Of a stretch of 64,000 bases of DNA, positions 39,075 to 63,938 are shown one piece after another (within the stretch, counting starts at the first letter, position 1; every line of letters starts with the position of its first letter). Below the pieces are notes generated by a model, which made no database searches, was not told the origin of the DNA, and was given only the letters and a program-made list of their open reading frames with translations. The stretch comes from an uncultured Pelagibacteraceae bacterium (GTDB taxonomy: Bacteria > Pseudomonadota > Alphaproteobacteria > Pelagibacterales > Pelagibacteraceae). Location of the stretch: assembly GCA_902576045.1 (NCBI GenBank), contig CACGTU010000004.1, forward strand, positions 1-64,000. Direction: 5' to 3'. The position numbers and the translations under genes are program-made.

Positions 39075-41945
39075 TTATGCAGCATCTTCTTTAAATTCGT
39101 CAATACTAGGACAGGTACAAAATATATTTTTATCTCCATAAACATTGTCTACTCTTGCAACTGGAGGCCAAAATTTATTTACTCTTAAAAATTTTGCAGG
39201 ATAAGCAGCTTGCTCTCTTGAATATTTATGTGTCCATTCATCTGAAGCTAATTCAAAATCGGTGTGTGGAGCATTTTTTATTGGATTATCAACTTTATCA
39301 AATTTACCTGACTTGATCATGTCAATTTCTGATTTAATGCTAATCAAGGTATCACAAAATCTATCTAGCTCAGATAAACTCTCACTTTCAGTTGGTTCTA
39401 TCATCATTGTACCAGCAACTGGCCATGACATTGTTGGTGCATGAAAACCATAATCTATCAATCTTTTAGCAATATCTTCTTCGGTAATACCTGTTTCACT
39501 CTTAATTAGTCTAATATCAATAATGCATTCATGAGCCACATTACCATTTGAGCCTTTGTAAAGTATTGGATAGTGATCTTTTAACCTATTTGCTATGTAA
39601 TTTGCATTTAGTATCGCAATTTGTGTTGCAAGTTTTAATCCTTGAGAGCCCATCATTTTAATATACATCCAAGAAATTGATAAAATACTTGAACTTCCCC
39701 AAGGTGCTGCGGAGACAGGACCAATTCCAGTTGAAGGCCCACAATCTTTAACTACCGGGTGATTGGGAAGATAAACCTGTAAATGCCTTTTACATGCAAT
39801 AGGTCCCATTCCAGGGCCTCCTCCACCGTGAGGAATACAAAATGTTTTATGTAAGTTTATATGGCAAACATCAGGACCAAAATTTCCTGGTTTTGCTATA
39901 CCAACCAGTGCATTTAAGTTTGCACCATCCATGTAAACTTGGCCTCCATGTTTATGAATTAATTCACATATATCTTTTATTTTTTCCTCAAATACACCAT
40001 GTGTGGATGGATATGTAACCATTAAAGCTCCGAGATTTTCCGAGTGTGTCTCAGCTTTTTTCTTTAAATCTTCAAAATCAACATTTCCCTCTTTATCACA
40101 ATTAATTACTACCACCTTCATTCCTACCATCTGGGCACTTGCTGGATTAGTTCCATGTGCTGAGCTAGGTATTAAGCATATATTTCTGTTTTGTTCGCCT
40201 CTATCTAAATGGTATTTTCTTATCACCATTAATCCAGCATATTCTCCTTGAGCACCTGCATTAGGCTGAAGTGATACACCAGAAAAACCAGTAATTGATC
40301 TTAGCCAATTTTTAAGATCAGTGAACAAAGCTCTATATCCTTCCATTTGCTCAACAGGAACGAATGGATGGGGCTCGGCTAATTCTCTCCATGAAATAGG
40401 GATCATTTCTGCAGTAGCATTTAACTTCATGGTACATGACCCTAATGCAATCATAGTTCTGTTAAGTGCGATATCCTTATCTTCTAACTTTTTAAGATAT
40501 CTAAGCATTTCTGTTTCAGAGTGATATGAATTGAAAACAGGATGTTCTAAGTATTTTGAAGTTCTCAATAAATTTTTTGGAAGGTTAGGTAAACTTACTG
40601 TAGGATCTTCTTTTTTAATAGACTCTGCTGCATTAAAAATTTTTAATAATTGATTAACTCTATAAACATTTTTTTTCTCATCAAAAGAAATGGCAAGCAT
40701 TTCTGAATTTACTTTTCTAATATTTACTTTTTGATCTAAAGCATTTTTAAAAATCTGATCAGTCTTCTCTTTAGTAATAATAGTTACAGTATCAAAGAAA
40801 TAATCTGAATATAATTCATATCCAGATTGTTTTATTTTATCAGCAAAGTTTTTTGCTAATTGTGAAACTCTCTCAGAAATTTCCTTTATTCCATCTGGTC
40901 CATGATAAATAGCATAAGCTGCTGATACAATCGCTAGTAATGCTTGTGCCGTACAAATATTGCTTGTTGCTTTGTCTCTTCTGATGTGCTGCTCTCTAGT
41001 TTGTAGAGATAATCTGTATGCCTTATTTCCATGTCTATCAACTGAAACACCAACGATTCTTCCTGGCATTGATCTTTTAAATTCATCTTTTGTTGCAAAA
41101 AAAGCTGCATGAGGCCCTCCATAACCCATTGGAATACCAAATCTTTGAGAGCTACCGACAGCTATATCTGCACCAAGTTCTCCTGGTGTTTTTAATTTAG
41201 CAAGTGCTAATAAATCACAAGCCAAGATCGCTTTACCATTTTTTTTGTGGATTTTACTTATATGTTCACTTGGATCTTTAATGTCACCTAGAGTTCCTGG
41301 GTATTGTAAAATTCCACAAACAATATCCTCTTTTAACTGATCCAAAACTTTGTCCTCATCACCAACAAGAACTTTTAATCCCATAGGTTCTGCTCTAGTT
41401 TGAACAACGTCGATTGTTTGTGGATGACAATTCTCTGAAATGAAAACTAAATTACTATCACTTTTGTTAAGTCTATGACTTAGACCCATAGCCTCTGCTG
41501 CTGCCGTTCCTTCGTCAAGCAGAGATGCATTTGCAATATCCATTCCTGTAAAATCAACAATCATTTGTTGGAAGTTTAATAACATTTCTAATCTTCCTTG
41601 AGCCACCTCAGGCTGGTAAGGCGTGTATGATGTATACCAACCAGGATTTTCCAATATATTTCTTAAAATAACATACGGTGTATAAGTTCCATAATAACCC
41701 ATGCCAATAAAATTGGAGTAAATTTGGTTTTTTTTTGAAATTGATTTTAATTTTCTAAGCGCTTCGTATTCTGAATTCGACTCACCAATATTTAGTTCAC
41801 CTTTAAACTGTATTTTATCTGGAACAGTACTGTTTATAAGATCATCTAATGACTTAAAGTTAAGTTCTTTAAGCATTTTTTGTTGCTCATTATTTGAAGG
41901 ACCTATGTGTCTTCGAATAAAGTCTTTTTGTGAATTATGTAACAT
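39075..41945 (-). CDS. gcvP: Glycine dehydrogenase (decarboxylating), single-chain P protein
   Basis: FIRRHIGPSNNEQQKML, SLLDEGTAAAEAM, HINLHKTFCIPHGGGGPGMGPI. Confidence 0.97.
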   Translation of the reverse strand: MLHNSQKDFIRRHIGPSNNEQQKMLKELNFKSLDDLINSTVPDKIQFKGELNIGESNSEYEALRKLKSISKKNQIYSNFIGMGYYGTYTPYVILRNILENPGWYTSYTPYQPEVAQGRLEMLLNFQQMIVDFTGMDIANASLLDEGTAAAEAMGLSHRLNKSDSNLVFISENCHPQTIDVVQTRAEPMGLKVLVGDEDKVLDQLKEDIVCGILQYPGTLGDIKDPSEHISKIHKKNGKAILACDLLALAKLKTPGELGADIAVGSSQRFGIPMGYGGPHAAFFATKDEFKRSMPGRIVGVSVDRHGNKAYRLSLQTREQHIRRDKATSNICTAQALLAIVSAAYAIYHGPDGIKEISERVSQLAKNFADKIKQSGYELYSDYFFDTVTIITKEKTDQIFKNALDQKVNIRKVNSEMLAISFDEKKNVYRVNQLLKIFNAAESIKKEDPTVSLPNLPKNLLRTSKYLEHPVFNSYHSETEMLRYLKKLEDKDIALNRTMIALGSCTMKLNATAEMIPISWRELAEPHPFVPVEQMEGYRALFTDLKNWLRSITGFSGVSLQPNAGAQGEYAGLMVIRKYHLDRGEQNRNICLIPSSAHGTNPASAQMVGMKVVVINCDKEGNVDFEDLKKKAETHSENLGALMVTYPSTHGVFEEKIKDICELIHKHGGQVYMDGANLNALVGIAKPGNFGPDVCHINLHKTFCIPHGGGGPGMGPIACKRHLQVYLPNHPVVKDCGPSTGIGPVSAAPWGSSSILSISWMYIKMMGSQGLKLATQIAILNANYIANRLKDHYPILYKGSNGNVAHECIIDIRLIKSETGITEEDIAKRLIDYGFHAPTMSWPVAGTMMIEPTESESLSELDRFCDTLISIKSEIDMIKSGKFDKVDNPIKNAPHTDFELASDEWTHKYSREQAAYPAKFLRVNKFWPPVARVDNVYGDKNIFCTCPSIDEFKEDAA

Positions 41946-42325
41946 TAGCTTGATGTCTCCTTTGCAAATTTCTCGTATTCTTCTTTATTCATTAACGTGT
42001 CTAATTCTGATAAATCTTTTACTTTCAATTTAAAAAACCATGCAGCACCCTCGGGGTCTTCATTAATTTTTGCTGGATCGTCCACAATAGATTGATTTAT
42101 ATCAACTACTTCTCCACTGATAGGTGTGTAAACGTCACTTGCGGCTTTTGTAGACTCTACAACACCTGCAGTTCCATCTTTTTCAACATTTGTGCCTTTT
42201 TCTGGCAACTCAGCAAAAACTATATCACCTAACATTTCAGTTGCATGTTTTGTAATTCCAATAGTTGCAACCTCACCCTCCAGTGTAATCCATTCATGCT
42301 CTTTGGAAAATTTAACTTCAGACAT
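41945..42325 (-). CDS. gcvH: Glycine cleavage system H protein
   Basis: [40 protein letters not shown]. Confidence 0.97.
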
Positions 42326-43421
42326 TTTTTTCTCCTTTTACATAGTTTTTTTTATAAAATGGTAAATCACAAACATTGGCTGGAACTTTTTTTCCTCTTA
42401 CTTCTAAAAAGATTTTTGTATTTGTTGGTGAGTAATTGTTTTCGACATACCCCATTGCAATTGAGCATTCAACACTTGGTCCAAATGTACCGCTTGTAAC
42501 TTTACCTATTTCTTTATCGTTCTGATCAAAAATTTTAGTATTTCCTCTTGCTATAACTCTTGTTTCAGGTTTGATACCAACTCTTAAAGTCTTTACTCCA
42601 TTATCAATTTGTTTTTTTATAATATCTGAACCAGGATAATCACTACCAACTCTTGATTTAGGTATTGCCCATTTCAAGTTTGCCTCAATCGGACTTGTTT
42701 TTTCGTCAAGATCATTACCATATAAGCATAAACCAGCTTCTAATCTTAGCGTATCTCTTGCGCCAAGCCCTATAAGTTTAGCACCATAATTAATTAATTG
42801 ATCTACAAATTTTTCAGCTTTTTTATTATCTAAAGAGATCTCAAAACCATCTTCACCAGTATAACCAGATCTTGTTATGTATATATTTGAATTATCATAT
42901 TCAAATTCCCCTCCATTCATGAATTTAAGATTAGTTATATTTGAAACTACTTTTCCTAATACATCCTTTGCTTTTGGTCCTTGTATTGCAATCAAAGATA
43001 GGCTTTCATCTAAATTTAAATCATATTTGCCATTTAATTTTTTTTTTATTATTTCAAGATCTTGCTTTTTACATGCTGCATTTAAAATAATTAAGTAACC
43101 ATCTTTTAATTTTGTAATAATTAAATCGTCGTAAATTCCTCCCTTATCATTCATTAAAAAAGAATATTTACTTTGATTAGTCTTTAAATTTTTTAAATTA
43201 ACTGGAAATATTTTTTCTAGATCATCTGTAAGATGATCTGAACCGTTTATAAATAGCTGTCCCATATGTGATACGTCAAATATACCCGCATTTTCTCTAG
43301 TAAATTTGTGTTCTTGGATTATTCCACTCTTATATTGTATGGGCATTTGGTAACCTGCAAACTCAACCATCTTTGCACCATGTTGGATATGTAATTTATA
43401 TAAAGGTGTTTTTTTATTCAT
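42318..43421 (-). CDS. gcvT: Glycine cleavage system T protein (aminomethyltransferase)
   Basis: [46 protein letters not shown]. Confidence 0.97.
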
Positions 43422-43437
43422 ATTAACTCTTTAATCC

Positions 43438-43580
43438 CCTCTGTCTTGTTGCCTGAGAGTTTTGCTCCTTCGGCGAGAACTTAATCTCTTTCCAGAGTTA
43501 ATACGTACGGTCCTTTTGCCTGAGAGATTATTGGGTATTTGCTCCTTCGGCGCTACATTGAGTAGTCTCTCCCGTGAGTT
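43438..43580 (-). promoter_or_regulatory. Tandem glycine riboswitch (two aptamers) upstream of gcvT
   Basis: Minus strand: CGGGAGAGACTACTC...GCGCCGAAGGAGCAAA...CTCTCAGGCAAAAGGACCG, then CTCTGGAAAGAG...CGCCGAAGGAGCAAAACTCTCAGGCAACAAGACAGAG; both carry conserved glycine-aptamer core sequences. Confidence 0.95.
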
Positions 43581-43613
43581 CTTATAACACAATTTATTAT
43601 AAAATATAAATAT

Positions 43614-44483
43614 TTATGCAGATTTTTTTTTAAAAAATAAAGTTAAAAACTGTAATAGAACTGCGAATATAACCACGGACCCACCAATTAAAACAATAAA
43701 AGGAGGGTTTTCATTAACAAACATCCATGCCCAAAGAGGTCCTAAAACTGCCTCAGTAAGCATAATTATCCCAACAAATGCAGAAGGTGTAGATCTTGCA
43801 CCAACTGTAATAAAAATAAATCCAAATCCCAATTGAAAAAAACCAGCTAAAAATCCTAAAAAAATATCATGGCTAGAAATTGCAATAGTTGGTGACATCA
43901 AGTATCCAATAATCATTGCAAATATACCTGCTACAAGTTGAAGTGGGACCATGTCAAAATCTGGATATTTTCTTACTACTAGAATTAAAATTGCGAATGA
44001 AATTGGCATTAGAAATGCAGCTATATTTCCAGACATTTCTCCAGGTGATAAAGAATTACCCACCATCATGATTATACCAGCTATTGCCAAAATGATTGAA
44101 GCTAAAGTGATTTTAGATATTTTTTCTTTTAAAAATAAATAACCAAATACAGCAAGAAATATCGTTTGTGTCTGAATTATAAAATTAGTATTTGTTACAG
44201 TTGTATTGTACATTGCAAAAACATAACTTGCAAAGCCTACTGCTAGAATTAAACCACCAAACAAACCTGGAATACCAGATTTAATAAGTACACTAAAAAT
44301 TTTTTGTTTATAAGAAATTATTAAGAATAAAAATACAACAATTATAAAAAAAAGAGATCTCCAAAATAATATTTGCCATAAAGTTGATCCTTCAAATGAC
44401 TTTACAATCATACCGCCAAAACTAAGGCTACAGGCACCTAAAAATACAAGAAATGGTCCTGGTATTTTTGAAATTATATTCAC
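43614..44483 (-). CDS. DMT/EamA transporter
   Basis: 10 TM pattern. Confidence 0.85.
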   Translation of the reverse strand: MNIISKIPGPFLVFLGACSLSFGGMIVKSFEGSTLWQILFWRSLFFIIVVFLFLIISYKQKIFSVLIKSGIPGLFGGLILAVGFASYVFAMYNTTVTNTNFIIQTQTIFLAVFGYLFLKEKISKITLASIILAIAGIIMMVGNSLSPGEMSGNIAAFLMPISFAILILVVRKYPDFDMVPLQLVAGIFAMIIGYLMSPTIAISSHDIFLGFLAGFFQLGFGFIFITVGARSTPSAFVGIIMLTEAVLGPLWAWMFVNENPPFIVLIGGSVVIFAVLLQFLTLFFKKKSA

Positions 44484-63822: not shown

Positions 63823-63892
63823 TTTGTTTTTAATAAACTACTTGTTGTTAAAGTTTTCCACAACCATACAAAATCTAGTTTGAATGTTCTCG

Positions 63893-63914
63893 TTTTGATT
63901 CACTTTTGATTCAC
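63893..63914. repeat. Two perfect adjacent copies of TTTTGATTCAC
   Basis: 63893-63903 and 63904-63914 identical. Confidence 0.9.
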
Positions 63915-63938
63915 TTACAGACTCAAAATACAACCTAT

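Follow-up and report, generated by a model that had tools for sequence, protein, structure and literature searches.

The DNA analysed here, a stretch of 64,000 nucleotides (nt) from an uncultured Pelagibacteraceae bacterium (contig CACGTU010000004.1 of assembly GCA_902576045.1, positions 1 to 64,000; hereafter the window), carries on its minus strand the genes gcvT, gcvH and gcvP behind a leader that contains two adjoining glycine aptamers and can fold in two ways around the gcvT start. The open reading frame (ORF) at 42318..43421, which we take to be gcvT, encodes an aminomethyltransferase of 367 amino acids (aa) and is the controlled gene; its product is 60-97% identical to those of other Pelagibacteraceae loci in tblastn comparisons, and its nearest relatives place the genome in this family (SAR11). 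It is followed by gcvH (41945..42325, minus strand, 126 aa), which overlaps the end of gcvT, and by gcvP (39075..41945, minus strand, 956 aa), both ORFs being named from their sequences and the operon order. Directly upstream of these glycine-metabolism genes, aptamer 1 (43498..43584, minus strand, 67.6 bits) and aptamer 2 (43431..43505, minus strand, 51.9 bits) both match RF00504 above its gathering score of 32 bits, and by these matches the gcvT leader is a tandem glycine riboswitch of the RF00504 family. Membership in the glycine-GGAnGA variant family (RF03166) was rejected, the leader scoring 70.3 bits against a gathering score of 110. No intrinsic terminator was found at 43380-43700.

An original prediction made from the letters of the window had described two competing helices in this leader, and reading the minus strand reproduces both of them at exactly the positions given. 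The P1 helix of aptamer 2 joins CUCUG (43493..43497, minus strand, also part of the RF00504 match) with CAGAG (43439..43443, minus strand), whereas a perfect alternative pairing of nine base pairs joins ATTAACTCT (43502-43494) with AGAGTTAAT (43430-43422), the latter immediately adjoining the gcvT ATG (43421-43419). This start-site helix is longer than first noted: the additional pairs U43503-A43421, G43504.U43420 and C43505-G43419 extend it to 12 pairs between a linker arm, CGUAUUAACUCU (43494..43505, minus strand; 12 nt rather than the nine at 43502-43494), and a start-site arm, AGAGUUAAUAUG (43419..43430, minus strand), which holds a weak GAG resembling a Shine-Dalgarno (SD) motif, so that the start codon of gcvT itself lies inside the helix. 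The duplex has an energy of -13.9 kcal/mol. Dinucleotide shuffling of the start region gave a mean of -3.8, and none of 5000 shuffles was as stable; of the window's 54 ORF starts, that of gcvT is the one best paired by the linker.

The pairing was compared across 102 distinct Pelagibacteraceae gcvT leaders, all of which keep the start-site helix, with 12 of its 12 positions paired in 77 leaders, 11 in 19 and 10 in five; in leader L165, where automatic anchoring fell on the wrong ACAGA, reading by eye gave eight pairs (AAAACUCU/AGAGUUUU). The CUCU/AGAG core hardly changes, which would fit a second role of CUCU in P1, and the variation sits in the flank, where the two strands change together by lineage: AUUAAC/GUUAAU in the genus of the window, AAUAAC/GUUAUU in several genera, AUAAAC/GUUUAU in two, and AAAAC/GUUUU and UAUAAC/GUUAUA in one genus each. 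Apart from a few single-leader groups, a linker arm generally finds its best partner among the start sites of the lineage it comes from. In an alignment of 61 leaders, with shuffled and slid arms as controls, standard pairs fill 95.1% of the cells (88.6% shuffled, at most 56% slid), and double changes, affecting both strands, occupy 39 cells (12.4 shuffled, at most 6 slid). Covariation scores 0.220, compared with 0.107 for the shuffles and no more than 0.052 after sliding; RNAalifold, unprompted, recovers seven of the helix pairs. On the GcvT protein tree the arm types require 4 to 5 changes, one of which, in L147, is a one-base insertion that shifts a fixed-position label and is itself matched on the opposite strand, leaving about three to four matched changes of independent origin. 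The start-site helix is conserved with compensatory changes; a lack of conservation of this pairing, which would have refuted the original prediction, was not seen. In 11 genomes lacking RF00504 matches no close GcvT relative was found (five of them encode paralogues of about 30% identity), suggesting that switch and gene go together.

The two helices compete for the same bases. In folding calculations, whose energies take no account of glycine, of tertiary contacts or of transcriptional order, the ligand-free leader of the window forms nine pairs of the start-site helix with probabilities of 0.95-0.99 and P1 with a probability of 0.01. Forcing P1 costs 2.8 kcal/mol in ensemble energy for aptamer 2 alone and 3.1 kcal/mol for the full leader, and even those pairs of the start-site helix that do not overlap P1 then drop to 0.01, with P2 and P3 unchanged between the two states. 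The helices share CUCU (43497-43494), and the claim that they cannot coexist is supported by these calculations. Across the relatives, forcing P1 raises the median openness of the SD region from 0.02 to 0.61 and the openness of the start codon from 0.01 to 0.16, the smaller effect on the start codon arising because, in the model, the A+T-rich start has neighbouring coding sequence as a further pairing partner.

The original prediction had assigned to the helix the role of masking the only purine-rich SD candidate. A further candidate, AGAGGGG (43442-43436), is also present and ends 14 nt before the AUG, although AGAG is indeed the sole candidate at an ordinary distance. In one complete genome of the same genus, GGAG, GAGG or AGGA lies upstream of 11.6% of the starts of 268 ORFs of at least 200 aa, compared with 10.6% in coding sequence, and only a minor peak stands out at -12 to -9; these figures are approximate because each ORF was assumed to begin at its first ATG. 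The ORFs of the window agree, with SD motifs near background. The 16S tail of a genome of the same genus reads GGATTACCTCC and keeps ACCUCCUUU. As a side observation, the 16S 3' end L238 (G003:C1) has the tail GGATTACCTCCTTTCT in place of the usual GGATCACCTCC. GAG is found in most gcvT leaders, but L200 and L201 lack it and yet keep ten pairs, and the best pairing register passes through the start codon in 82 of the 102 leaders. Taken together, the near-background SD motifs, the loss of GAG in these two leaders and the position of the register suggest that the helix probably hides the initiation region, start codon included, rather than the SD specifically.

A start region masked by a helix that excludes the P1 of aptamer 2 is one feature expected of a translational ON glycine riboswitch, and the covarying start-site helix, which shares CUCU with P1, has it. 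Without glycine, the inter-aptamer linker AUUAACUCU (extendable to 12 nt) would pair with the gcvT start site and bury the initiation region, including the start codon in most relatives; with glycine bound, the P1 of aptamer 2 would close, capture CUCU and free the start site, and the glycine cleavage system would be made when glycine is plentiful. P1 would be complete before the start arm is transcribed, and the glycine-bound aptamer could hold the ON state. Judging from the sequences and the predicted folds, the leader is very probably the expression platform through which the tandem riboswitch switches on translation of gcvTHP in response to glycine, and we infer that the balance between the two folds responds to glycine in the cell and that control is exerted on translation initiation rather than on termination or decay. 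In this form the ON switch originally proposed gains from the exclusive pairing of P1 and start-site helix, from conservation, compensation and folding, and from the lack of a terminator, but its emphasis on the SD finds no support in the SD survey, in L200 and L201 or in the registers running through the start codon.

Several observations weigh against translational ON control by this helix. SD use in SAR11 appears weak. Covariation of both helices had been proposed as a check, but only the start-site helix covaries; P1 hardly varies, its outer C-G pair is missing in 38 of the 61 aligned relatives, and this near-invariance means that covariation gives P1 no support. In the relatives, forcing P1 costs a median of 5.9 kcal/mol (10-90% range 2.8-8.3, maximum 11.5), and in the many with larger costs than the window the binding of glycine might not easily repay this modelled penalty without tertiary contacts or co-transcriptional folding. 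Finally, the divergent leaders L155 and L163 show no preference for the helix when coding sequence is included in the folding, the pairing being restored after removal of 25 nt of coding sequence.

The pairing might instead be a permanent stem that stacks on P1, extending it or closing aptamer 2 structurally without any switching, since strict overlap with P1 is limited to CUCU/AGAG and a bulge might conceivably let P1 and the outer pairs form together. However, the outer pairs fall to 0.01 when P1 is forced, the bases of the helix that stay constant are precisely those it has in common with P1, and gcvT would never be opened for translation if the stem were permanent, making this reading very unlikely. 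Chance complementarity, which short arms in an A+T-rich region might readily produce, can be rejected given that no shuffle was as good, that arms generally prefer the start sites of their own lineage and that compensatory changes occurred in several lineages. An OFF switch, in which a glycine-stabilised P1 hides the upstream AGAGGGG acting as the ribosome site, draws on the resemblance of this motif to an SD and on the identity of its first part with the P1 3' strand; its distance from the AUG and a spacer that varies in length and sequence among relatives speak against it, the covarying start-site helix would be left unexplained, and genes for glycine breakdown are generally expected to be induced by glycine. 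We therefore regard such a switch as extremely improbable.

Control might also act through Rho-dependent transcription or mRNA decay once the leader has folded, and not mainly through translation initiation, as untranslated mRNA can be open to Rho or RNases (PMC13104608). Against this stand the lack of an intrinsic terminator in the leader and the observation, from a Red Sea transcriptome (PMC5069720), that SAR11 glycine-riboswitch transcripts mainly continue into gcvT, which fits transcription without early termination, although the authors of that study read it as a sign of glycine-replete cells; we give this explanation little chance. The preferred reading remains translational ON control by competition between P1 and the start-site helix.

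Glycine riboswitches upstream of gcvT and glcB were reported for SAR11 ('Ca. Pelagibacter ubique') (PMC2211319; PMC2704228), and those of gcvT, known since 2007-2009, share the gene, the tandem aptamers and the bacterial group with the leader described here. For the modulation of translation of glycine genes by riboswitches, a 2010 paper (PMC2864753) refers to Tripp 2009. We did not find the start-site helix or its compensatory changes named in the SAR11 glycine-riboswitch literature (PMC2211319, PMC2704228), although Tripp 2009 may name them. The closest experimentally demonstrated system is that of Neisseria gonorrhoeae, where tandem aptamers in front of gcvT form a translational ON switch without a terminator and sequence of aptamer 2 masks the ribosome-binding site and start region when glycine is absent (PMC13104608). 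In contrast to the inter-aptamer linker and P1 5' strand used here, another part of aptamer 2 does the masking in Neisseria, and the Neisseria switch was shown by experiment, the SAR11 switch being predicted from sequence and folding. Transcriptional glycine ON switches (PMC2258182) have in common with it the ON logic and an aptamer-dependent choice between two helices, but they control terminator stems, of which none was found in the SAR11 leader; translational platforms prevail in Pseudomonadota (PMC12452182). To this the present analysis adds the precise pairing element, the finding that it reaches across the start codon, and compensatory evidence from the whole family; the type of switch was already known.

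The genome carries another tandem element outside this locus, ahead of an ORF that we take to be glcB, encoding malate synthase. Of 15 glcB leaders, 10 can form the linker/start helix with a single mismatch at start sites resembling GUGCUAUG, at energies of -9.4 to -12.5 kcal/mol, and L161 forms it with a bulge (-12.2 kcal/mol); for these 11 leaders, 1 to 27 of 500 shuffles were equally good. Pairing is weak in the glcB leader of the window's own genome (L002, G000:C3, ~1167-1318), with -6.1 kcal/mol and 47 of 500 shuffles as good. The linker/start helix is absent from L178, L182 and L186, which belong to another Pelagibacteraceae genus; AUUGGU, immediately ahead of the start, has a possible partner there in an ACCAAU towards the 3' end of aptamer 2, an arrangement similar to that in Neisseria. 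A separate case is the glcB leader L199 (G074:C1:239850-240950), an apparent single aptamer composed of the front of aptamer 1 and the back of aptamer 2, which is either a deletion between repeats or an assembly effect. It is conceivable, though we hold it only tentatively, that SAR11 possesses a distinct and evolving platform in which the linker buries the start codon rather than masking an SD, in a family that barely uses SD motifs, with matched mutations preserving it, a related form on many glcB leaders and, on some of the others, an apparent swap to a hairpin with the aptamer-2 core.

A general alphaproteobacterial platform was considered and rejected, as the linker/start pairing is not general among 26 gcvT leaders from outside the Pelagibacteraceae. 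Five of these 26 score below 0.05 against shuffles, the start codons in this set being uncertain. L220 and L224, whose start codons are likewise uncertain, show linker/start-region pairing far above shuffles (0 and 0.5% as good). Such leaders may represent independent versions of the same design. Apart from the riboswitch, the window contains a match to the SAR11_0636 sRNA (RF01827, 92.9 bits, 63846-63935, minus strand).

SAR11 are among the most abundant marine cells, their protein regulators are few, and glycine joins their carbon and one-carbon metabolism. The start-site helix, with its direct evolutionary support, offers a concrete and mutable switch element for studying how glycine breakdown is matched to glycine supply, and it represents a case of riboswitch control of translation in a family where SD pairing seems to be little used.
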